Part shown: positions 851 through 54,400 of the stretch, piece by piece
Layout of the letters: each line of letters begins with the position of its first letter
Numbering within the stretch: position 1 is the stretch's first letter
DNA from: Romanomermis culicivorax
Taxonomy: Eukaryota > Nematoda > Enoplea > Mermithida > Mermithidae
Assembly (NCBI GenBank): GCA_963922205.1
Contig: CAWUHX010000224.1
Location: forward strand, 62,001 to 126,000
DNA: 64,000 nucleotides
Direction: 5' to 3'
Notes under the pieces: model-generated
The model's input: the letters and a program-made list of their open reading frames with translations, nothing else
Database searches by the model: none
Told to the model about the DNA's origin: nothing
Program-made: the position numbers and the translations under genes

Positions 851-3800
851 GTAATCAGGACCGTAGTCAGAAATATTTAAGGGGGTTTACTGAGCAAAAA
901 AACTTTTTCCGGCGTCCAGCACCGGGGAAATGTTATTGATTTTACATTCTAAAAAGCTGGAAAATCAATCTTCATAACAATGAACGTAAATTTAAATCAA
1001 GCTAGTCTTAGAATGACGATTTTATCGTTTTTCAATGCGTATCGCAAAGTTTCACGCTTCAAAACGTTTGGAAAACTAAAAGCGAGAGAATTAAATTTTA
1101 AGAAGTGATGAAAAATTTCAATTACCGTATTTATTTGAATAAACGCCGCGACGTTTATTCAAATAAATAAAAAAATTGCAACCTACTGCAAACTGTTACT
1201 TATTTTTTCACTTTATAAACTAAAGGATAGTAAATCCTCGAATAAACGCCGCGGCGTTTATTCTTTTTTTCGAACAGAAGTGCGGCGTTTATTCGAGAGC
1301 GGCGTTTATTTAAGGGCAGCGTTTATTCAAATGAATACGGTATCGGCAAAATATTGGCTCTTAACTAGTCAAAAAAGATGAGATAATTCAGTTAATTCAG
1401 ACTGTTGAAGGTTTATTAGTAAGTTGAAGTAGATATGCTAGTGGCCGCGCCTAATAGAAAACAATGACTGTTGTACTAATTGACCGGCGCGAAGCGCCTT
1501 AAGATTCTGGGACTTTTTTCAGTAATGGATACGAAATCGACAATATGTAAAGTCCCAAGTTCGCCCCCTAAATAAGGCTTTGCAAGTAATATTTTTCGTA
1601 AGACGGGAACACAACATAGGTTGAAATTATGCTCGGCGAACAGCCGAATGGAGCCGTTTTTTATAAAAAATGTTTTTTTTTTCAAGTGGAAACGATTGAA
1701 ATTATCAAAACTTTGATTTTCATACTGCACATTTTTATCATTATCAATCATATTTTGTTGGTTTTTCATAGGCCAAAGAAGGTCATATCGTTGCCGAAAA
1801 CCCGAATTCACAGGTAGGTGGCATGACCGGCATTGCCACTGCCGGCGACGCCATGGCGACGTCGACCGCTTCGATGGATGAAGCTAGGCCGCCATCGCGA
1901 CTTTTATCTACCGTTTTAGAAGAATCTGAGATCGATTCATTACCTGACAATGAACGTAAATTGTGTTTCTCACTTCATTTTTTGACTAACCATGAAGGTG
2001 CGTTTGACTATGGAACTTACATGGAAGGCCCTAAATTACTCGACCATTTTTTGTTGGAGACGGACCCGATATTCTTAAAATTTTGGACCCGTTCCCGAAC
2101 CTGATATGCTACCCGATATTAGAGATGTATCAGGCATCCGGACACGAGATTACCCAACCATTTTGTTGAACCCGGATCCGATATTATTAAAATTTTGGAT
2201 CTTTACCCGATATGTTCAAAAAATGCTACCCGATACATCTCTAATAATGTATAATAAATTCTATCGCATTGACATGCAGAATTCAGATTTCTGTAGAAGG
2301 TCTGTTTAGAAGAAATTATCAATTGGAGAATCGTAAAATCAGCAATTCTCGAAAATTTAATTATGATGGTGATGATTTTAGTCGACAACATTAAGCAGTG
2401 ATGGGATAATATAAAAAGAATGAACGAATAAGTTAGTAAATACGGGATAAACATGCAGTATATTAGCGAATATGCTGTGCATAGTCAAAAAGGCTCATAC
2501 AGTTGACCAAAATTGAATTTATCCATTTTAGAGCGAAAAACGTTTCGATTTCTAGATGTGATTATCGATTTAGGAAGTTTATTCCAGATAGGAATAACTC
2601 TATGCGTAAAAAAATATTTCTTAATATCAGTCCTCGGAATATCCGTTTGTAACTTCCGATTGTGGCTGGATTGGGTCTGAGATGTAAGAAATGGTGCAGA
2701 AATCGTTTAAATTTATGTCTACTTTATGGTTTATTATCTTACATAACCAAATCATTTAAACGTCTTCTACTTTCATGTGTCTCTAACTTTAGTAAAGTCA
2801 AACGCTCATTATGTTGAGAATCCTTTTTATGACGTATTTCTGTCCTTTTTAATGGCTCTGATGTTCTTAGTTCAGTGGAGTGACCGGATGGTAGCTGCAT
2901 ATTGCAGAATAACGCATTAGTCAGTAAGAATTTATCTTTGCCGTCGAATCGACGGAGTATAAGATATAATCTGTAGTAAGTATTCTTTATGACATGGCCT
3001 ATATGTTCATAAAATTTAAAGTTTTAGGTTAAAAAAATACCAAGATCTTTAACATAATTATCAGTATCCTCAATTATTTTGTCATCAATTTTGTACTTCT
3101 TCATTTTGTTATTAAATCCAAAATGCATTACCTTACTTTCAGAAGTAGAGAGTTAGTTGAGATCTTTTGGACCATCTGACAATAGATTCTAGAGAATTTT
3201 TGAAGGTCCCCACTGTTTTCAGTACGACTATAAATTTTTATATCATCAGCGAACAAAAACATGCTTACTTCAGGTGATCGTGGTAGGTTATCTATATCAT
3301 TGATATATAAAAGGAATAATGAAGGATACATAACACTGCCCTGTGGAACTCCACTTTTTGAGAGAAACCACTTCTATCATATAGTTATAATGCATCAAAC
3401 TCACATCATCATTTGGTACATTTGAACGGACGTAAATTTCTTTAGATAATCTATAAATCTTAAAAGATTTCTGTTAAAATTGGTAATAGAAGTACCAGAA
3501 ACATTCCTAAAACGATAAGTCAGACTTTGATTGCAAAATTACCGTTAGGCAAGATATAAGTATAGTATCTTGTGACGCGACTTGAAAATCGTATGTTTTC
3601 ATACATTGCATTACTTTTTGAGGAAAGATCACCCCAATTCCCTAAATCAGGTATGATAGTTGGTAGGACAAAACAGGTTAATCTCACATCTGCAGCTTGC
3701 TTATGTAAATGTATATATATCTATATATTGTTGAAACAGAAGTGCTTTATTCTGGTCTATGAAAAATGCAAAGTTAAGACATTCAGTATATTTAGCCCAA

Positions 3801-13835: not shown

Positions 13836-13839
13836 AGAA

Positions 13840-14464
13840 TGTGAGAGCGCTCTAAACCAATCGATAATCAAGAAACCTACAATAAACAGCGACTCTCCCC
13901 CAATCGCACACACACCAGGCAAACCTACGTTATCCGATCCCACTGTAGACAATGCGTCAAGATTTTCGCCCTAGGTCATGCAACTCTTTTTGCGACTACA
14001 CCCACTTAGATTATGATCTAATATTACGTGACTTTATGACGTTATTACCTAGTTTTTATGTCATTTCTTTATGTCTTTTTAGTTATATAAATATGTTGGT
14101 TTTGTATGTAAAAATTACTTCACCTCTTTTCTAATAAATCTAGCTTACCTGCTTTTCTTCTCTGCTCCCTAATTTCGTCATAGGGTCGCTGGTAAAACGT
14201 CGTTTTTCCGTCTGGCTTTTGCGTCCATTGGAACCTGGAAAGAAATATATTTTCGTTACGAGACTAAGATTTTCCTTTCGAATTACTTTGGCGTTTTTCT
14301 TGATCCTTGTCGCTGGCGTTCGCCCCTTGACGTTTTCGTTTTCGTTGACGATTCTAAAGAAGAAAGAATAAATCAAGAACATTTTAGCATTCAGTCCGAT
14401 CTGCAGGTTATTCAGCTACAGTAACCTGTATTTTCCATTGACCCAAACATTGATAAACCTTACA
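13840..14464 (+). repeat. 5' LTR (625 bp)
   Basis: It starts TGTGAGAGCGCTCTAAACC, ends CCTTACA, and matches 20818-21442 at the same length. TTATATAAATATG near 14080 could be a TATA element, and AATAAA occurs near 14132 and 14363. Those two roles are inferred. Confidence 0.95.
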
Positions 14465-14466
14465 AG

Positions 14467-14484
14467 TGGCGATTCGTGGCAGGA
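14467..14484 (+). other. Primer-binding site of the LTR element
   Basis: TGGCGATTCGTGGCAGGA begins two bases after the 5' LTR. TGG pairs with the CCA end of a tRNA, as expected for minus-strand priming. The tRNA identity was not determined. Confidence 0.75.
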
Positions 14485-14649
14485 CGTCGACTACAATCTT
14501 CGGATCCGATTTGACGTTGGAGAAGCCTGAAAATAAAGAAGCACGAAGGTTAACGATTTTTGGCAACTTACTCGACGTTTTCAGAACTCGACGTTGACGT
14601 TTTTCTCGAACTTGACGACTTTTTCTTGAACGTCTGAAGAAGAAAATTT

Positions 14650-15199
14650 AGGAGAAGATTTACGAATTTTGGCAAATCAAGAAGATTACGTTTTAATTGA
14701 AAATAGAGAAGTAATGGCACGACAAGAAAATCATTTTTGGCTTAGGAATAACACGAGAGATTCTCAAATTCAATTGAACGGTCCCCAAGAGCCCAACAGG
14801 ATGGGAGGTCGCCCAACTAGCATGCTAAATACCAACTTTAGTCGTGGCCGCTCATCAGGAAGGTCCTCAGATGGCACCATTTCTAGTTTTAGATGTGGTA
14901 GAAGTGGGCATTATTCTTCTACTTGCCCTATGCTCGAACGAAATCAAGATTCCAGATTTTCGAGTTCCCCGCGTAGCACGTGGTGTGAGGGACCGCCCCG
15001 AGTACAAATGCCAGCCCGAGGCATTTCGAACCTAGGAGTCCAGGAGATGCCCTTTCTGGAACCCGAGGAGTCAATGGTCAGCTTTGTCTTGCCGAGGCTA
15101 ATGGGCCCAACGTGTCAGAATTTAATCCTGACACCATCGCAGAACAGTCTGATCCCTGGAATTGCGATGATCTCGATCTGTTTGGAAATTCCAATGTGA
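14650..15199 (+). pseudogene. gag remnant with a damaged CCHC zinc knuckle
   Basis: The open frame, usable from about 14669, is rich in Gln, Arg and Ser. It contains SFRCGRSGHYSSTC at about 14887-14930, a retroviral-type CX2CX4HX4C knuckle whose first Cys is Ser (AGT for TGT). Normally the knuckle ends a nucleocapsid and helps package RNA. There is room for only about 70 residues before it, so most of a gag is absent. It overlaps the pol frame, which is in another phase (open from about 14989), so a frameshift or mutation separates them. Confidence 0.7.
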
Positions 15200-18156
15200 G
15201 GCCTCAGGCACATGTTTTTATGGCCCGATATAATGAATTATATTTTGGAACCGGACACTCCACATTGGTGAGTAGTGGGACAGGATCTGAAGAAATTAGC
15301 GATAATCCCACTATTGCCTCCCACGGGTATACTGGCAATTATTTAGATATTGAAGACCCAGAACATTTAGAAAATAGTCATTTAGAAAATGGTTCAGACA
15401 GAACCTCTGATTTTGATGAAACTTCTGATTTCGACCATTATGAAGAGGGACGACGTCGTCCACGTTTTGAAAATTCTGGGCAGGCTGAATCAGCTAATGT
15501 TTTCATGAATACGGCTCAGACTGGAGGTTATAATTCCGACCGTCCCTTTGGAATCCACCCCGTGGGTGAAGTTTATTTTAGAATTTTGAATGGGCCCGCT
15601 GCAGCTAGTATTTGTAATTTATGTAAAATTTCGAATTGTATGCATATGCAAGGATTTGGAAGCCAGTCACAACGAGGAGTGATCGCTAGACAAGGACCCT
15701 TGGAATTTACGACAGAAGGATGGACCAATGAGTCGGCACCATGGATTGCTTGGAGGCCCGAAGTCACCTCCCCAGAAGATCCCATGCGACACCAGTCAAC
15801 TCAAACTGACTCAAGAATGGATCCAAGAAGGCTAGAAAACTCATACTTTCGATTCAGAGCAGAAGCAGTTCAAAGAAGCAGAAGTCGCAACAGAAGAAGA
15901 ATTCCTCAACAAAATTTTCAGCGAATTTTTAGAAATTTAGTCTCACTTACTTCTTCTTATTTTTTGTTCGCCGTTATCCTGTTGCTTTCTTTTCTCGTCG
16001 GCTATTCGTTCGGCGACCCTTTCTTCCAATGTGGCGTTTCGCAAGGCAGTCGTGCCTTGATGGTCCCGATAACAACGCGATATCAATTTTCGCCACTGAT
16101 CGTAGCTGAAAAACGTGAAATAAAATTGCACATTTGGTCCACGAAGGGACATTTGAATCAAATTATAGCCAGTCAATGCATTTTACGAAACCGAACCATT
16201 TATACGAACACAGAAGTTCTATTTCAAAAAGCAGAAAATGGAGAAAAATCTATCACTTATGCCAGTAGAAGTTTAACGAAAGTGGAAAGAAACTACGTAA
16301 TCATGGGACAGGAAGCTTTGGCCATAGATCGGGCCATGAGATATTTTCGTCACTATTTGTATCGGCAGCGTGTCACCGTTCCTATGAATCATTTAGTCTT
16401 ACAAAGTGTTTTTTCAAAACCAAAACCTTCCAGTCATATAGCTAGATGGAGACTAGTAGTGCAAGAATCTCAAGAACTCAACATTAAACATCGCACGGGA
16501 AAAGTCGACAAAAACACAGATGCTTTCTCAAGAAACCCAGCACGTGAAGAAAACGGCAAGAAAGGAGTAGAATTTCACATAAATGCTGTTACACGCTCAC
16601 CAACTTGTAAAAATAGGCTGAATGACTCAATTTTCGATAGCGCAGAAGCAGGTTCCGAAAAAACATTGACTATAGCAAGAACTAGACTAGATGAAATTCA
16701 ACCTACACGCTCAAAAACGCCTGATAACCTCTTTTCAACTCAAGAAGATGCGAATTTTGAAGAATCTCTAACTATAGAAAGAACTACTCTCAGGAAAACT
16801 CGAGTTATAGTTACAGAAAGAGAAGAAAACACGTTCGACGCGAGCAAGATAGAAAATTTTCGCAAGGCGCGAAGAAGTGATCAATTTTGTGATCAACTAT
16901 TGGTTTATTCACAGTCTGATTACCTGCCTGAAGATCTTAAGCAAGCCGAGAAAATTGTTTCACTAGCATCTCAATTTACGATAAAAGACGAAATTTTATA
17001 TTATTTGGGCGACGCGGACGAAAACGAATTGAAATTAGAAGTTCCAGTTTCGAAAAAAGAAGAAATTTTAGAAGCCTGCCACGATGACATTTTTTCTGAA
17101 CATTTTGGTTTTACGAAAACATTAGGAAAAACTCGCTTAGGCCACCACAGGCCTACAGTATACCGCGATGTACGAGAACATTGCTTAAATTATATCGTTT
17201 GCAATATAAGAAAAACAGGCCTAAAAAGAAACCCCGCCGCTCTCATGCCTATACTAGTCGCAAGTCCATTTGACAGAGTGGCTATGGACATTCTCGGTCC
17301 TCTGCCTATGAGCGAAAATAGAAACGAACACGTTATTGTGCTCAGAGAATATTTAAAGAAGAATGTGATGGCAGCAGCACTACTAGAAACTACGATAGAA
17401 AAAGTTGCAGAAATAATGCTACAATTTGGTGCGCCACTAACAGATGGAGAAATAAATTTCTTATCTGATCCAACGTTATGCCTTTGTGAATTACGTACAA
17501 CAAGAAAAACAAACATGAATTTCTACCATCCACAAACAAACAGATTAGTGGAAAAATTCAATAAAACATTGGCTACAATTATCTCAATGAACATCAATGA
17601 AAAACAAAACGACTGGGATTCCTGTTTGCCCTACGCGTGTTTTGCATGTAATACGGCCACCCAAAAGTCAACAAAGTGCTTACCGTTTTCTCCTTTTTCT
17701 GGCCGCCGTCCAAATTTCTCGATTGACGTCGTTTTTCGTTTTTTGCCGGCTTTTTGTCGAATCGATGTTGATCTTGGCGACGACGTCCAACGACTTTTGT
17801 CCGACACCTGGCAGTCTGCCAAAGAGAATATAAAAATTATACAGCATGCTCAGAAAATTGCATATGATGAAAAAGAACACGAAGGAGAACTCACAGAAGG
17901 AAAAGAAATTTCTAAGTATAGTTCTGTGGTGAAGCCCAAATATTCACCTAAACCTACTTTTTCATGGATAGGACTTTACGTCATTATTAAAAAGAAACAT
18001 TCGATGAACTTATCGCGATTAAAAGAAAATTCGAGTTGCCCGCACGAAGAAATACATTCCGATGTATCAAGAATGAAAAAGATGGACGTAAATTTGTCCA
18101 TGACGCAAATTTTGATCGTATCATCGGAGCAACTTTCGAAACATTCATTTGCATGA
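15112..18156 (+). CDS. Retroelement pol-like polyprotein: RNase H and integrase, no RT seen
   Basis: This frame stays open for about 1014 codons; the first triplet is GTG and the true start is unknown. The first ~270 residues are acidic and unrecognised. A hydrophobic stretch lies near 15950-16010 (FLFAVILLLSFLVGYSF). RNase H follows at about 16090-16550, with ITYASRSLTKVERNY and MRYFRHYLYRQ; the usual TDH is MNH, so one acidic residue is lost. Integrase covers about 17050-17720: HFGFTKTL, AMDILGPLP (first Asp), TDGEINF (second Asp) and YHPQTNRLVEKFNKTL (Glu). The zinc-binding CXXC is broken because only one Cys remains in YIVCNIRKT. No protease DTG or RT YXDD box is visible between gag and RNase H. 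The protein is therefore unlikely to drive its own copying. Confidence 0.88.
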   Translation: MSEFNPDTIAEQSDPWNCDDLDLFGNSNVRPQAHVFMARYNELYFGTGHSTLVSSGTGSEEISDNPTIASHGYTGNYLDIEDPEHLENSHLENGSDRTSDFDETSDFDHYEEGRRRPRFENSGQAESANVFMNTAQTGGYNSDRPFGIHPVGEVYFRILNGPAAASICNLCKISNCMHMQGFGSQSQRGVIARQGPLEFTTEGWTNESAPWIAWRPEVTSPEDPMRHQSTQTDSRMDPRRLENSYFRFRAEAVQRSRSRNRRRIPQQNFQRIFRNLVSLTSSYFLFAVILLLSFLVGYSFGDPFFQCGVSQGSRALMVPITTRYQFSPLIVAEKREIKLHIWSTKGHLNQIIASQCILRNRTIYTNTEVLFQKAENGEKSITYASRSLTKVERNYVIMGQEALAIDRAMRYFRHYLYRQRVTVPMNHLVLQSVFSKPKPSSHIARWRLVVQESQELNIKHRTGKVDKNTDAFSRNPAREENGKKGVEFHINAVTRSPTCKNRLNDSIFDSAEAGSEKTLTIARTRLDEIQPTRSKTPDNLFSTQEDANFEESLTIERTTLRKTRVIVTEREENTFDASKIENFRKARRSDQFCDQLLVYSQSDYLPEDLKQAEKIVSLASQFTIKDEILYYLGDADENELKLEVPVSKKEEILEACHDDIFSEHFGFTKTLGKTRLGHHRPTVYRDVREHCLNYIVCNIRKTGLKRNPAALMPILVASPFDRVAMDILGPLPMSENRNEHVIVLREYLKKNVMAAALLETTIEKVAEIMLQFGAPLTDGEINFLSDPTLCLCELRTTRKTNMNFYHPQTNRLVEKFNKTLATIISMNINEKQNDWDSCLPYACFACNTATQKSTKCLPFSPFSGRRPNFSIDVVFRFLPAFCRIDVDLGDDVQRLLSDTWQSAKENIKIIQHAQKIAYDEKEHEGELTEGKEISKYSSVVKPKYSPKPTFSWIGLYVIIKKKHSMNLSRLKENSSCPHEEIHSDVSRMKKMDVNLSMTQILIVSSEQLSKHSFA

Positions 18157-18411
18157 TTCGTCCATGTGAAAAAAAGAAAGAAAAAAAAGGAAGAAAAAAT
18201 GCCTAAATGTTTGTATAAAATGCATAATATTTTTCTGTATAAGTCATTAGGAAGATTTATCGCTCCTCCTAACGTGCGTTCTCTTCAATATTTTTACATT
18301 TATTCGGCTAAATATTTTCTTTTATTTTTTTTTATTATTCTTTTTCGGGTAAATTATTATTTTGTGTACTTATTTATACCCTGTCCTTAATTTATTTTTA
18401 CACCTAAAGAC

Positions 18412-19644
18412 ATGGCTTTCGCGAAGATCCCACCCATAATAGCAGCCGATCGCTGGCGTCTTTGCCAAATATCGCCGCCCTTGATCAAGCACGAGGCCAT
18501 CGTTACATTTGGCCAAGAACTTGGGCGATTGCTGTTAAATGGTCGTTATGCCGTGTGTACGACCATCGAAGAAAGTCAACTTATGTCTGACTTTCTAGCC
18601 AGCGACCCGGGTCACCCTGGCGTTTACGGGCTCGACGCCAAATTTATGAATTACCATATGGATTGGGTCGACTGGGGGAAGAAGGAGGCTGACCCGCTAG
18701 CCAATTTGGCCAAGACAAAACTTGACATCGCTTTGCATGGCCAGCGATACTCAAAAGGGCCTTTCGCCGTCATCATTCAAGTTTGCCGTGCCGACGGCCA
18801 CACCATCGTCTTTGATCTTTTGGAGATGGGAATCGTTCCCATCTCCTTGATCAAACTTTTGCAAAACGCCCGCGGCATCGTCGGCTTCGCCTCCAACTGC
18901 AACCTAACTGCCCTGGCTAACGTGGACGTACGGTTCGCGGACATTAAGATACGGGCTGACACTAGCCAGATACAACGATTTCTGAAGAGCAATCGTAGCC
19001 TCGACTACGTTAGCAACAGGAACCCCGACCTGTACAAGCATTTAGTCGAAGGGACGGCCGATTTTTATCGTACAGGAAACAGTCTGGCGGCCATAGCACA
19101 ACATTTTTTTGGCATTCATCTCAATAAAGGCTTCCAAGGTCGGGAATTGGCATGGGCCAAGCGTCCCTTGCCCTCCGACACCCTAGAATATGCCGCCTTG
19201 GATGCCATCGCCCATTTCGACGTTTACTATAGCCTGAACGAATTTTACCCCCTTTTTGACGAAATTAGAACCATGACATCGAAGGAGCGAATAATGATGT
19301 CAAAACGAGCTTCGAAATGCGAACCATTATCCCTCGCCATTCTTGATTTTCCCCTTCGAGAAGTAAAACTAAGATCTATAATTTTAGATAGGTTAGGCAA
19401 AGACCCCGTACCACGAAATTTGACCAGCCAAAGTTCAACTGAAGACGAAGAAGAAAGAGAAAAATCCGAAGAAAAGGCAGAAATTTCAGGAAACAATCTA
19501 TTTGTTTCCCTGAAATCAGAAGAACGAAAAGAAACAGTTTTCTACACCCTGAAAATAATTCTAAAAGAAGCTGTTAAATACACCTTTAGCTTGATAAATA
19601 AGAAGGATAAACAAACTGGTGTAAAGAATCCACCTAATCTTTAA
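18412..19644 (+). CDS. DEDD 3'-5' exonuclease-like protein (RNase D/WRN type) in env position
   Basis: A 410-residue frame with start context AAGACATGG lies 255 bp after pol, where an envelope gene would be. Residues about 70-285 fit the DEDDy exonuclease fold of RNase D, WRN and MUT-7-like proteins. They show GLDAKF (motif I, residues 73-78), AVIIQVCR, the motif II region IVGFASNCNLTAL, SLAAIAQHFFGIHLNK, and motif III EYAALDAIAHFDVYYSL with Tyr260 and Asp264. In family members these acidic residues bind two metals and hydrolyse nucleic acid from the 3' end. Here the Glu of motif I is Lys77 and the motif II Asp appears as Asn164, so activity is doubtful. The region to about 19330 is clearly more GC-rich than its surroundings; the tail after residue 310 is AT-rich and Glu/Lys-rich. 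TTTTTACACCTAAAG just before the ATG could be a splice acceptor. Confidence 0.82.
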   Translation: MAFAKIPPIIAADRWRLCQISPPLIKHEAIVTFGQELGRLLLNGRYAVCTTIEESQLMSDFLASDPGHPGVYGLDAKFMNYHMDWVDWGKKEADPLANLAKTKLDIALHGQRYSKGPFAVIIQVCRADGHTIVFDLLEMGIVPISLIKLLQNARGIVGFASNCNLTALANVDVRFADIKIRADTSQIQRFLKSNRSLDYVSNRNPDLYKHLVEGTADFYRTGNSLAAIAQHFFGIHLNKGFQGRELAWAKRPLPSDTLEYAALDAIAHFDVYYSLNEFYPLFDEIRTMTSKERIMMSKRASKCEPLSLAILDFPLREVKLRSIILDRLGKDPVPRNLTSQSSTEDEEEREKSEEKAEISGNNLFVSLKSEERKETVFYTLKIILKEAVKYTFSLINKKDKQTGVKNPPNL

Positions 19645-20223
19645 CAGGGAAAACCATTACCGACGTCTTCAACCGAGTCGACCAAAAGAACAAGGGAGGA
19701 AAAATCGTCAGCCAAATCGTCGAAGTCTCCACCTAAAAAGTCCAAAGTGGGAACCAAATCAAACTCCCCTCAGGCCAGTAGCAGCCGCCGCGTAATCGAA
19801 AAGAAGCGAAGCTTCGTTGAAATCGTTTTCGAAATGCCAACCGTTTTCAAACCGAAGCCGCCCCCACCAGACTGCCATTTTTCGGCTTTTAATTATTTCC
19901 GCCGACGCTTTGATACACCAGTCACCAACCGCGAAGCGATCGATTTACGGGCACAGGCAGAACGAGAGGCCTATCGCCATTTGGACGATAACCTAGCTGC
20001 CTTTATCGTTTGCTTTATGCCCCCCTATCACTCGGAAATGCCGCCCACTGCCAGAGAATTCGCCGAACTACGCAGCGTCCATCTAAGAAATCAACGTCGA
20101 CGGGACCCCCGGCTGCTCCTGGAACAAATCGAAGCCCTAGTGGCTAAATTTTTTAATATTCTTACCAAATATTACACCAGCCGCGTCATTCGACTCGCCG
20201 CCGACCGTCAACACTGCTCGTAA
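19645..20223 (+). CDS. In-frame continuation after the exonuclease stop, unknown domain
   Basis: The reading frame of the exonuclease gene continues open for 193 codons after the single TAA at 19642-19644. It has a Ser/Lys/Pro-rich basic linker (to about 19790), then an Arg-rich, probably helical region with FNYFRRRFDTP, DLRAQAEREAYRHLDD and LEQIEALVAKFF. I do not recognise a family. The first internal ATG-like start is the GTG/ATG region near 19747. The segment may have been one protein with the exonuclease, or be expressed by readthrough or splicing. GC content matches the exonuclease core, not the AT-rich piece between them. Confidence 0.6.
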   Translation, partial: QGKPLPTSSTESTKRTREEKSSAKSSKSPPKKSKVGTKSNSPQASSSRRVIEKKRSFVEIVFEMPTVFKPKPPPPDCHFSAFNYFRRRFDTPVTNREAIDLRAQAEREAYRHLDDNLAAFIVCFMPPYHSEMPPTAREFAELRSVHLRNQRRRDPRLLLEQIEALVAKFFNILTKYYTSRVIRLAADRQHCS

Positions 20224-20817
20224 CTCCTCATCCTCAAATTTTGCCGTTGTAAATATTTTTGTCCATTATTTTCGTCCAATTCGTCAAATTAATCATCGTC
20301 GTCGCCGTCAATAACTTTTGTCGTCCAATATTTTCGTCGTTCGTCCTTAATTCGTCGTCGTTTTGTCGCCGAATAATTTATCATCGCCGTCCTATTGTCC
20401 AATTATCGTTTCGTCGCCGCCGTATTCGTCGAAATCTTGTCACTTTTCCGTTGTATATTTCGTATTGTGTATATATGGAAAAAAGAAAAAAACCACCGAA
20501 AAACCATTTTAATTTTTAATTCTTTACAAATTTGTACAATTTAAATTCATGTGAAACAGGAAAATTATAAAACAGAACAGGAAAAATGATAAAGAAAAAA
20601 ACGGAAAACAAAATTGGAGAAAATGGAAGACAAAAAAAAGAACGAAGAAAATTATAAAGAAGAAAATTTGAGAGTTGGAGAAAAACACGAGGAGAAATTT
20701 TTGTTTACCGTTATGAAAACACTTACCCTCAATTTCGCCATCCATTTCGCCGTCAATTCGCTGTCCGATTTTGCCAAAATGAGGCTGGGGGCAGCCTTTT
20801 CGCCAGCGTCGGAAGAA
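20224..20817 (+). other. Non-coding 3' region of the LTR element
   Basis: The first 230 bases are dense in TCGTC/CGTCG repeats. The rest is AAGAAAAAA-rich. Short open frames here look compositional. It holds the weak polypurine-tract candidates next to the 3' LTR. Confidence 0.6.
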
Positions 20818-21442
20818 TGTGAGAGCGCTCTAAACCAATCGATAATTAAGAAACCTACAGTAAACAGCGACTCTCGCCCAATCGCACACACACCAGGCAA
20901 ACCTACGTTATCCCATCCCACTGTAGACAATGCGTCAAGATTTTCGCCCTACATCATGCAACTCTTTTTGCGACTAGGCCTACTTAGATTATGATCTATT
21001 ATTACGTGACTTTATGACGTTATTACCTAGTTTTTATGTCATTTTTTTATGTCTTTTTATTTATATAAATATGTTGGTTTTGTATGTAAAAATTACTTCA
21101 CCTCTTTTCTAATAAATCTAGCTTACCTGCTTTTCTTCTCTGCTCCCTAATTTCGTCGTAGGGTCGCTGGTAAAACGTCGTTTTTCCGTCCGGCTTTTGC
21201 ATCCATTGGAACCTGGAAAGAAATATATTTTCGTTACGAGACTAAGATTTTCCTTTCGAATTACCTTGGCGTTTTTCTTGATCGTTGTCGCTGCCGTTCG
21301 CCCCTTGACCTTTTCGTTTTTGTTGACGATTCTAAAGAAGAAAGAATAAATCAAGAACATTTTAGCATTCAGTCCGATCTGCAGGTTATTCAGCTACAGT
21401 AACCTGTATTTTCCATTGACCCAAACATTGATAAACCTTACA
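20818..21442 (+). repeat. 3' LTR (625 bp)
   Basis: It has the same length and ends as the 5' LTR, with about 20 substitutions and no indels seen by eye. The base after it begins the right AGAA target duplication. The purines just upstream (GGAAGAA, and GAGGCTGGGGGCAG at about 20781) are weak polypurine-tract candidates. Confidence 0.95.
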
Positions 21443-21446
21443 AGAA

Positions 21447-24495: not shown

Positions 24496-24748
24496 ACCCG
24501 ACAATTGAGCGCCGGACAATTGAGCGCCGACAATTGAGCGCCGACAACTGAGCGCCAGACAACTGAGCGCTGTGACAACTGAGCACTGACAACTGAGCGC
24601 CGACAACTGAGCGCCGACAACTGAGCGCCGACAACTGAGCGCCGACAACTGAGCGCCGACAACTGAGCGCCAACAACTGAGCGCCGACAACTGAGCGCGG
24701 ACAACTGAGCGCCGAGACAACTGAGCGCCAGATAACTGACCGCCGACT
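24496..24748. repeat. Minisatellite, unit GACAACTGAGCGCC, left array
   Basis: About 17 units of 13-16 bp with small variants (ACAATTGAGCGCC, GACAACTGAGCGCTGT). The array reappears in reverse complement at 25127-25365. Open frames across it (ALSCRRSVVGAQ repeats) are products of the periodicity. Confidence 0.95.
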
Positions 24749-24798
24749 ATTTAATGTCAGATAAATAACCCAATCAGTTTGAAGTTACTATTTTGCAT

Positions 24799-24960
24799 TT
24801 AGGCTTAGGCTTAGGCTTAGGCTTAGGCTTAGGCTTAGGCTTAGGCTTAAGCTTAGGCTTAGGCTTGGGCTTAGGCTTAGGCTTAGGCTTAGGCTTAGGC
24901 TTGGGCTTAGGCTTAGGGGCTTAAGCTTAGGGGCTTAGGCTTAGGCTTAGGCTTAGGCTT
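24799..24960 (+). repeat. Interstitial telomere-type tract (TTAGGC)n
   Basis: About 27 units of TTAGGC with a few variants (TTGGGC, TTAAGC, TTAGGGGC). TTAGGC is the nematode telomere repeat. The tract runs in one orientation only, so it is not a simple head-to-head telomere fusion. It sits between inverted minisatellites inside Harbinger DNA. Confidence 0.97.
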
Positions 24961-25126
24961 CGTCATACGAATCAAAAATGATCATATTTGTTTGATTCAT
25001 AATATTAGATGTATGGACATATATACATTACGGTAGATAATCATTACGGTAGATAATCACTGAAATGCTAGTATTCCGTAGCGCTCAGTAAATGAAAAAA
25101 ACGCTCAATTATAATGCATTAAATAG

Positions 25127-25365
25127 TCGGCGCTCAGTTGTCGGCACTCAAATGTCTGGCGCTCAGTTGTCGGCACTCAAATGTCTGGCGCTCAGTTGTC
25201 ATGGCGCTCAATTGTCACGGCGCTCAGTTGTCTGGCGCTCAGTTGTTGGCGCTCAATTGTCAGCGCTCAATTGTCCGGCGCTCAGTTGTCAGCGCTCAGT
25301 TTTCGGCGCTCAATTGTCCGGCGCTCAGTTGTCGGCGCTCAATTGTCCGGTGCTCAATTGTCGGT
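25127..25365. repeat. Minisatellite, unit GGCGCTCAGTTGTC, right array
   Basis: This is the reverse complement of the left array with the same unit and similar variants (CAATTGTC, CAAATGTC). It directly abuts the CTTGGAATTTCCAAG motif block of the right Harbinger part. Confidence 0.95.
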
Positions 25366-51400: not shown

Positions 51401-54400
51401 TAAATGTCTTCAGTCGTACGATTTTCTCTTCGCGACAATTATTATACATTTATTTGAAATCGTAAGTCAAACGGATTGATGAGTTTTTATTTCAGTAATC
51501 CGTCTCGCGAGTCCCAATTTCAAAATATCGGTCGCCAATCAATGACCCCTATCGTCGGCAACCTATTGGATCCGTCATCGTTGATGCTGTGTCAATCGCC
51601 CCACTTTAGTCAATCCGCAGCTCATAGTCCTCTGACGCCACAGCATCGTCGACCATTAACGCCTTCAACGTCGAGCAGTCCCGCTACGCCCAACGTCGCC
51701 ATGTTGAACTTCGAAGCCGCGACGCAGAAGATTTTAGAGGCCCAACAGAAAGTGGTCGCGGCTGCCGCTGCGCAACAACAACAACAACAACAACAAATGA
51801 TGGTCGACGCTCAAAAGTCGGCGGCTATGACTTTAGAAGCGCAGAAAGTAGCTTATGAAAGACAGCTTGTAGAACAACATTTTCAGCAATCGAGATTGGA
51901 GCAGCAGCAACAGCAAAGAATGGCTGAGCATCAAAGGATGGTGGGAGGTACATAAATGGTCAATTCTAACTTCTCGTCCTCTGCTTTTCATTGTTTTTTC
52001 CTTATTTTACTAAATCAGTATTTATTATCCATAATGATTATCGGTTCGCGAATGTTTTTAAGTTATTTCATTGTAGTTGGGAGCATTTGGCCATCTCCGA
52101 CACCTTCATAACATGAGGGGGATCGACGGATTAGGCGAGGGTCAGAACCGATAGAAAAATACACATTTTAGCTTCAAAATGTATGAGAATATTTCAAATA
52201 GTATATACGATTAAGTTCCAAAACGCCTCTATATGGAGCGTAAAGCCAAAAAAGTCTTTCTTTTCACATTCTTTCGATCAAAATTGACGATATTTAGCCT
52301 AAAAATCGACATTTTACAATGTTTCGGTTTCATATGATAATGATGATATTTCAAACAGCTTCACTGCTTGAAACTGTTCGATCAGCTTGGACATTTTGTT
52401 ACTAATTTTTTCGCTCAATTACATTTAGGGACTAGGTCTATGGCCCCCAACTTTTGAGCATACATCTAATTTAAGTCAATGTTATTGGAACCATCTCCTT
52501 AAAAAAATCTTCACCCAAATAGTGATTTTCTCCCAAGATTTCTCTTTGCCGACAAAAATTCTAAAAATGTCAATTTTTTGGTAGAAAATAGTAATTTTAA
52601 CGAAAATGATCGGAAACGTTTTTTTCTGTGTTTCTTGCTATAAATACAACTTTTTTTGTTTTCTTCGTCAACAATTACTATTTTTCATATTATTTTTCGG
52701 ACGTTACACGAAAAATTCGAAATTTTTCTCTTCATCCATTGATTCAAAATTTTGAGTAGTAATTGATGCGCCCACTCATAAGAAACCGTCTGAAGTCCTC
52801 GGACCTCGAAGCTCTGTTTCATGTATGCTTTTTATTTATCTCACAAACGCTCGTCCCCATCTATCGGCCGAAAATCAGTCAAAACCTTAATTTTTTGTTC
52901 ATAAGTGACTCTTTTGAAACAAAAACCGATTAAAGAATTTGGGCTACGCATCGAAGTAGGCGAAAAAAATTCCCGCACAAGTTAGCCCCTCCAAAATTTG
53001 AGAAAATTAGTCACCCTACCCCAATTCCCCCAAAATCGATTTTCTCCAGTACTCAACTGGTCAGACTCCTTGCTTGCAAGTGTGATTCATTTCCATTTTC
53101 CTACCTTCCTCTACTAATCACTTGTTCTCTATTTGGATAATAATTTTTTTCTGCCTAGTTATATATTTCCTCTTGCTGCTTTATACCGTTTATTGGTGTT
53201 GAGTTTCTACCTTTTCTAGTTTGTTGTTTCCTATCTTTTGGCCAATCCTGCAGTAGTCTCTTTGTATTTTAAAGCACACAAACTTATTTTCTCAACTTGT
53301 GTTTTACTTCGCTTCTTTTTCTCGCTTTCCAAATTTTTCTTTCCTCATTTTCTCCTTTCTTTCTCGTGTAAGTTTCTTCACTTTCTGTTCTCTTTTGTTT
53401 TATATATAGGATATCTTTTTCCCCTAAAATTGGTATACACCTCACATTGTTCTCTTCTAGTGGCTAACGATTTGGAAAAAATACGCGCCTACGAGCAATA
53501 TTGCCTGGCCCAGCAAATGAATGCTCAAAAAATGGGTCAGCTTGGTCAATCGGACGCTATATTAGATCATATTCGTATGATGATGCAGCAACAAAATCGA
53601 TCGCAGCCGCAAATCGCCAACATAGTAAATTTGGCTGCAGCGCAGCAACACTTGTTGCAGCAACAGCAGCAGCAACCCACGCAGCAACACTTGTTGCAGC
53701 AACAGCAGCAGCAACCCGCGCAGCAACACTTGTTGCAGCAACAGCAGCAGCAACCGGCGCAGCAACACTTGTTGCAGCAACAGCAGCAGCAACCCTCGCA
53801 GCAAAATTTGCCGTTCACCGTGCAGCAATTGAGCATTCCTCACGTTCAGCAGAGTAAATTTCAATGGGTTGTTTCGGAATGTAACTATTCCACTATTGTG
53901 GCACTTGTTCTAAAAAGCTCTAAACCTTTCAAACCTGACAATGTGTTTGAGGCGTTTTAACAAGTAACCAAAATTTCTAATGCAAACCGTTGGAAAGAAC
54001 GAACATCTGCCTTAAATTGGAATTTCTTTGTATAGTGCTCAGACCTGTAACTTACTGCGATCGAGCAGTTTTTTTATTGAATTCTTTGTATTGTAATTCC
54101 ATTAAAGATTTTGCTGTTCATTTTCTTTTCAGAAAAATATAATTTAAATCTTTAATTTCATACAAATTTCATTTTTTTCTAGTAACTTTAAAAAATTTCA
54201 TTTTATCTTAATAACAGCCCTTGAAAGTATTTTGTAAAAAAAGTTCCCTAACGATGCGGTAGGATGCAGTATATTTCTTAGCATTTTGAGTCATATTCAA
54301 TGATGTGAAAGAGTCGCCAATTTTCGTAATATAGTTGCCATTTTTTCAGTGCAAAAGTGCAAAAGTTTTCTCGCGAAGGTTTCTTAAAGCTTTTTTGTAC

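Follow-up and report, generated by a model that had tools for sequence, protein, structure and literature searches.

A 64,000-nucleotide stretch from the mermithid nematode Romanomermis culicivorax (contig CAWUHX010000224.1, positions 62,001 to 126,000; hereafter the window) contains, at window positions 13840–21442, a long terminal repeat (LTR) retroelement with a DEDDy-type 3'-5' exonuclease gene near its 3' end. We consider it probable that this element is a decayed member of a non-autonomous Ty3/gypsy-type family that has undergone internal deletion and keeps the exonuclease as a selected gene acting in cis. The exonuclease gene belongs to the element, is under constraint and is of a known kind, found in a new host phylum and in a family without reverse transcriptase (RT), while a sister group shows the opposite loss.

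The exonuclease gene occupies 18412–19644 (+), and a Pfam search of its product finds PF01612 at about 18745–19239 (E-value 1.2e-8; 35.4 bits, curated cut-off 23.6), which confirms the DEDD exonuclease-like domain named in the original prediction. The same family is found in the copies L023 (40.7 bits, 2.7e-10) and L024 (38.9 bits, 9.9e-10). The frame 18391–19644 is open for 417 codons, a length reached in none of 2000 mononucleotide shuffles of 18391–20223. A stop at 19642–19644 separates it from a C-terminal part at 19645–20223 (+) in the same reading frame. In L017, L023 and L024 the gene and this tail are one frame of 609–614 codons (608–610 in further copies). Among the 20 match rows at 85–87% identity, 11 retain a frame of 608–610 codons. 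Because 18412–19644 and 19645–20223 form a single frame of about 609 codons in some other copies, the stop is damage in the window copy. The catalytic residues D-x-E, D and Y-x3-D are present in 16 of 20 family rows, some of which have stops elsewhere, while in the window copy two of the acidic residues are changed (DxK in motif I, N for D in motif II). The window copy is decayed. Pfam finds no domain besides the exonuclease in the gene, and NCBIfam, run on three exonuclease genes, gives nothing above cut-off. The tail is basic, belongs to no Pfam family and contains a PPKKSKV stretch, which we take to resemble a nuclear localisation signal.

A family profile compared with the Protein Data Bank matches Nibbler, the MUT-7 homologue (8.1e-9), and WRN (1.5e-6). 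The L024 domain model (predicted local distance difference test, pLDDT, 81.7; predicted template modelling score, pTM, 0.83) has the exonuclease fold, and its Foldseek matches are Nibbler and WRN (best), RRP6, RNase D, Pol I and the relatives Egalitarian and EXD1, at 12–23% identity; that a family does not appear among these structural matches is not read as excluding it. MUT-7 had been named earlier as a host relative of this fold, which agrees with these searches: the Nibbler/MUT-7 domain (7jw2, 7jw6) and the WRN exonuclease (2fbt) are the best matches by profile and by Foldseek and the closest among solved structures, though of low identity to the element protein.

Copies were searched in the contigs of the whole genome (359 Mb, 595 contigs). 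From 83 candidates 40 were scored, giving 41 match rows at 40 places, one of which is the window. The gene is therefore present at at least 39 further places, 82–93% identical and a few of them incomplete. In detailed comparison of 20 of these 39, 15 are colinear with the window element from LTR to LTR, some with a truncated LTR or an insertion; the remaining five (L010, L012, L021, L025 and L027) are fragments or have other surroundings. Two full LTRs are found in 12 of the 20, each copy having its own perfect 4-bp duplication (13 of 13 with the window). LTR divergence ranges from 4/627 in L023, which indicates that insertion has been recent, to 27/623. The original prediction asked whether other copies carry the gene or whether it sits in one copy as an insert with flanks of its own; other copies do carry it, at the same position, with element flanks and their own target duplications. 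The exonuclease gene is thus part of the element and no stray piece of host DNA.

Selection was studied with two-state codons whose variants occur in at least two copies. The rows spanning each stretch, window included, number 16 for the gag-glycoprotein stub, 16 for the RNase H-integrase remnant, 20 for the exonuclease and 21 for its tail. Shared variants are 79 synonymous to 26 non-synonymous in the exonuclease and 30 to 6 in the tail, compared with 40 to 96 in the RNase H-integrase remnant and 18 to 32 in the gag-glycoprotein stub. The exonuclease with its tail differs from the remnant at Fisher p 5.9e-16, and at p 1e-9 when the remnant is read in its best frame. Among variants confined to a single copy, the exonuclease shows less skew (24 synonymous, 33 non-synonymous), as expected of dead copies. 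Tiling in three frames gives ratios of 0.03 and 0.20 for the exonuclease and 0.06 for the tail, and best-frame ratios from 0.23 to 0.53 for six tiles between the leader and the integrase end. Two neighbouring tiles with few variants have ratios of 0.25 (18155–18411; 12 variants) and 0.12 (20224–20816; 13 variants). In the young pair L023–L024, synonymous divergence (dS) is alike (0.081 and 0.084), while the ratio of non-synonymous to synonymous divergence (dN/dS) is 0.09 for the exonuclease versus 0.46 for the remnant; the exonuclease and tail differ from all the rest of the element with p 0.0018. The exonuclease gene is mainly under purifying selection. We do not take the low non-synonymous share across all copies as proof of selection after the RT was lost, since that argument is weakened by the deeper dS of the exonuclease described below; the pair L023–L024 carries the point.

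The family itself has no RT. In a scan of 4.5 kb upstream, an RT was found at none of 38 window-like exonuclease places (66–71% identical to the R. culicivorax protein P0001), at 12 of 39 places closer to P0001 (75–88%) and at 23 of 59 more distant ones. These at least 136 places come from two listings, with pieces of one copy merged and some short fragments omitted, and the RT list holds the 87 best of 150 scored among 7236 candidates, so that remoter RTs would be missed. In 15 of the 20 compared copies, the colinear structure leaves no room for an RT.

The opposite loss is found in a sister group. An RT-bearing copy on contig C1 (L038) has its exonuclease domain deleted (about 1.27 kb) and keeps a remnant of the tail, and its LTR is 78–85% identical to the LTRs of seven window-family elements. 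This exonuclease-less 3' end recurs, whole or in part, at at least 40 places (40 scored from 122 candidates); the sequence of four further copies runs through it, one of them with 66 extra bases. Among the 87 best RT hits, 46 are at least 87% identical to a relative, L033; 33 of these have the exonuclease-less 3' end, 12 the exonuclease, none both and one neither. The other 41 (66–86%) include none with the exonuclease-less end, 23 with the exonuclease and 18 with neither. There are three groups, one with RT and exonuclease, one with RT and without exonuclease, and one with exonuclease and without RT.

How an RT-less family could profit from an exonuclease may be pictured as follows. The family has lost most of the glycoprotein, the protease, the RT and part of RNase H, in one deletion by the look of the junction. 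This junction (16212–16216, +), where about 3.6 kb is gone relative to L033 (most of the glycoprotein, protease, RT and the start of RNase H), lies at the same spot, within about 15 residues, in all four copies tested (the window copy, L024, L023 and L013). No protease or RT was found in the window element by Pfam, including RVT_1, or by tblastn comparison with L033. The family would then have to be copied by an RT-bearing relative. Tos17 and BARE2 are defective LTR families moved with help from relatives; what differs in the worm family is that the retained and constrained gene is an accessory exonuclease. Its protein would enter the nucleus, as the basic tail with its nuclear-signal-like stretch suggests, bind the RNA or complementary DNA (cDNA) of the element, and trim the 3' ends of these molecules or remove small RNAs aimed at the element. 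If it works mainly for the transcript that encodes it, this cis-preference would explain the retention of the exonuclease in a family without RT. By analogy, 3'-end trimming or an action on small RNAs seems the likeliest use; Nibbler and MUT-7 act on small RNAs in their hosts.

Several observations weigh against this explanation. Only 3 of 21 copies, window included, keep a frame of at least 600 codons open over the gene (8 of 21 keep at least 400), so most copies are decaying. The RT-less first frame, which joins gag, the glycoprotein stub and the remnants of RNase H and integrase, has 1154 open codons in L023 (2491–5955) and 1164 in L024 (2445–5939), a length which is not well explained by plain neutral decay and which weakens the view of the pol remnant as plain neutral debris. 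Compared with the window copy, this frame carries frame-shifting insertions and deletions of opposite sense, and it contains a truncated RNase H and an integrase with a degenerate core. In the pair L023–L024, dN/dS of the tail is 0.28 and that of gag is 0.17, on 8 changes, and the gap between exonuclease and remnant is smaller in other young pairs (0.30 vs 0.47 in L024–L026; 0.21 vs 0.49 in L024–L028). In deeper pairs, dS is 0.32–0.75 for the exonuclease against 0.16–0.30 for the remnant (for example 0.32 vs 0.16 in L013–L024). Since one-copy synonymous rates are similar (exonuclease, 24 on 272 sites in 20 rows; remnant, 31 on 422 sites in 16 rows), the higher dS points to a deeper history of the gene, which probably reflects exchange with relatives; part of the constraint could have come from such exchange with complete relatives. 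In addition, L035 and L036, one locus each from other lineages, are without the DxE of motif I, and the sister RT-bearing group has multiplied with its exonuclease domain deleted.

The exceptions in motif I bear on a first alternative, possible but clearly less probable than an active enzyme in cis, in which the 3' protein is mainly nucleic-acid-binding and its exonuclease fold binds genomic RNA for export or transport. Such a protein would be comparable by fold to EXD1, Maelstrom and Egalitarian, and by position to CERV of the nematode element Cer1. The structural matches include Egalitarian and EXD1, both RNA binders. L035 and L036 each retain a long frame at the same place without DxE, and their sequences suggest that the fold may have been reused without catalysis. 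In addition, CERV, encoded by the 3' gene of Cer1, is needed for the nuclear export of Cer1 genomic RNA, according to the available sections of the report (PMC10309623). Cer1, too, is a gypsy element of a nematode whose envelope position is occupied by a gene other than an envelope, and this precedent shows, by analogy, that the 3' gene of such an element can serve genomic RNA; CERV differs in being made from a spliced mRNA, and those sections mention no exonuclease domain (PMC10309623). On the other hand, the catalytic residues are kept in the 16 of 20 window-family rows given above and also in L033, where the set is complete as read off the alignment. Each exception is a single locus, and the L036 model is poor (pLDDT 54.5) and leaves its fold unconfirmed; we do not claim L036 as a confirmed catalytically dead exonuclease fold. 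The exonuclease versions of the other lineages are diverged (25–41% identical to P0001), and two further single loci deviate in the catalytic motifs, L034 and L037 having Ser at the motif III tyrosine and L037 being also without the motif II Asp.

A second alternative, which we regard as somewhat less probable still, is that the RT-less family is a simple parasite, whose exonuclease looks constrained because it is frequently re-acquired by template switching from complete relatives. The synonymous divergence, deeper in the exonuclease than in the pol remnant, is as this predicts, the gag-side tree differs from the exonuclease and pol-remnant trees, and suitable donors exist in the RT copies with exonuclease (12 of 46 close RT hits). 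However, the trees of the exonuclease and the pol remnant are largely congruent by eye, and the dN/dS difference in L023–L024 appears at like dS.

The complementary losses lend themselves to a third and more doubtful alternative, a two-component system in which two groups, one with RT but no exonuclease and the other with exonuclease but no RT, each provide the product that the other is missing. It is a long shot, in our view, that these are a split retroelement, that is, LTR-sharing populations with complementary gene halves which spread together like the segments of a multipartite virus; its halves, equally speculative, would be RT and glycoprotein without exonuclease in one population and exonuclease without RT in the other. 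The counts fit such a division (0 of 38 window-like places with a listed RT; 33 of 46 close RT hits exonuclease-less, and 0 with both ends), as does the LTR of L038, which is 78–85% identical to LTRs of the RT-less family. Nevertheless, copies with both RT and exonuclease exist, so mutual need is not forced. There is also no sign that the exonuclease-less group needs the enzyme, the LTR comparison for that group is made on one LTR (L038), and the exonuclease-less end is absent from all 41 RT hits at 66–86%.

We reject as wholly implausible the last alternative, that a piece of a host gene entered a single copy or that the assembly is at fault: the gene is GC-richer than its surroundings, as this would allow, but it occurs at 40 genomic places, 15 of 20 compared copies are colinear and have at least part of each LTR, copies have their own target duplications, and same-family R. 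culicivorax proteins are in public data. The higher GC content (46.5% in the gene, 41.1% in the element, 36.0% and 38.6% in the flanks) had been read earlier as a sign of capture from a host gene. The gene is indeed GC-richer, but recent capture finds no support, with 12–23% identity to structural matches and only Romanomermis matched in searches of limited sensitivity, and the GC argument is weak. These homology searches, of limited sensitivity, returned 6 and 1 matches, all from Romanomermis culicivorax, with none outside Romanomermis at E 0.001 or 0.01; a search of plasmids with the exonuclease gave no match. In one R. culicivorax protein, P0006, a PF00929-type exonuclease is joined to part of the exonuclease gene of the element. 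Both parts occur at locus L027, separated by about 3.3 kb and at 96–100% identity, which places the genome in R. culicivorax or a very close relative, and from these sequences P0006 looks like a gene-prediction merger of a truncated element copy and a host gene beside it.

The original prediction was right that an exonuclease is not a standard part of gypsy elements, but DEDDy genes in LTR elements had already been published for bdelloid rotifers. In the parts available of that paper, Rodriguez et al. (2017) describe a DEDDy ORF3 in the bdelloid LTR elements Juno and Vesta and in Athena/Terminons, which different kinds of element have probably passed to one another; its function is given as unknown, with RNA 3'-end processing and a part like that of MUT-7 raised as roles (PMC5408684). 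The same parts report a change from DEDD to DEED and, for the ORF3s that were resequenced and are treated under Env-like and GDSL-like, within-genome variation that is mostly neutral (PMC5408684). Compared by description only, and as far as those parts go, the worm elements resemble Juno and Vesta in being LTR elements with a DEDDy gene after pol in several element lineages (PMC5408684). They differ in the phylum of the host, in the glycoprotein of the relatives standing ahead of the protease, in having an exonuclease family without RT together with its reverse sister group, and in the worm exonuclease itself, where motif II ends in D and constraint is strong. No earlier report of exonuclease-bearing LTR elements of nematodes was found in the literature searched, which was mostly open-access. 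DEDDy exonuclease genes in LTR elements are consequently not a rotifer oddity, and the worm family adds evidence for selection preserving a gene of this sort. The surprising part is the pattern of opposite losses in sister groups, which raises the question of mutual dependence, and natural groups with and without the exonuclease make the use of the enzyme to the element directly testable.

The RT-bearing relatives L033 and L034 have one long frame and L036 has two in a row, with the order glycoprotein, aspartic protease, RT, RNase H, integrase and exonuclease-like gene. The domains from protease to integrase were checked in L033 and L036, where RT, RNase H and integrase are above the Pfam cut-off and the aspartic protease is below it. 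The fusion glycoprotein PF24664 is found in L033 (1.5e-15; 851–2800), L034 (1.7e-18; 903–2702) and L036 (1.6e-16; 401–2911), and in L034, whose start is cut, a gag knuckle precedes it, as judged by eye. The exonuclease gene of the window had been described as standing in the envelope position, which is right as a position, between integrase and 3' LTR. Since the RT-bearing relatives have their glycoprotein in another place, upstream of the protease, a simple replacement of an envelope by the exonuclease does not fit. No earlier report of a gypsy glycoprotein ahead of the protease was found in the literature searched. A genome search with PF24664, which is of the Monjiviricetes kind, gave 68 scored places, all above cut-off, and 2320 loose candidates, with frames of up to 2578 codons; judged from sequence, gypsy elements with a glycoprotein may have radiated widely in this one nematode. 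The LTR element Anakin also acquired a fusion glycoprotein, from a chuvirus; it is a BEL-Pao element for which the available sections of the paper describe no exonuclease, while in the worm relatives the glycoprotein lies inside the polyprotein frame ahead of the protease (PMC7642597). In L037, an exonuclease-like frame (2118–3428, −) is next to parts of a gypsy element of different appearance, in which RT, RNase H and integrase were recognised by eye, and a repeat recurs there at a spacing of about 5.9 kb; these are perhaps nested elements.

For the window element itself, the LTRs, the target duplication and the position of the exonuclease gene inside the element, all described before, are borne out by coordinates and sequence. 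The 5' LTR (13840–14464, +; 625 nt, TGTGAG...CTTACA) pairs with the 3' LTR (20818–21442, +; 625 nt), with 20 differences in 625 (Kimura two-parameter distance 0.033). The target site duplication AGAA is identical on the left (13836–13839) and on the right (21443–21446). An element with TGT...ACA ends, two LTRs and a 4-bp duplication is as expected of the Ty3/gypsy type. The primer-binding-site-like sequence TGGCGATTCGTGGCAGGA (14467–14484, +) starts with TGG, begins 2 nt past the 5' LTR and recurs with small changes after the 5' LTR in 12 other two-LTR copies; it is known from position and conservation.

A gag frame with a CCHC zinc knuckle follows (14630–15199, +). Its zf-CCHC match is below cut-off (0.0066), while that of L024 is above the Pfam cut-off (9.2e-5), and the window frame is broken, having one base fewer than 15 other copies across 14630–15199. 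The N-terminal stub of the fusion-glycoprotein region (15925–16212, +) is 70% identical by tblastn to the L033 region and has a membrane-helix-like stretch by eye; with only these approximately 96 glycoprotein residues retained, the window copy does not qualify as an envelope-type element. The truncated RNase H (16216–16467, +; PF17917, 1.2e-18) has a match beginning at profile position 20. The integrase remnant (17041–18154, +; PF17921, 6.6e-10) has an H2C2 and a degenerate core; all copies aligned across the second catalytic Asp have in-frame deletions next to it. The RNase H-integrase frame, used as a query, matched 64 gypsy-type polyproteins, with none named Romanomermis among the matches listed.

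For eight other window frames, Pfam gave no match above cut-off. Outside the element, a 39-nt tandem repeat at 53640–53804 codes for glutamine-rich stretches in an open frame, perhaps that of a host gene. TTAGGC is the nematode telomere repeat, and at 24498–25364 an interstitial array of about 26 such units, in keeping with a nematode genome, lies between two oppositely oriented arrays of a 14-nt unit.

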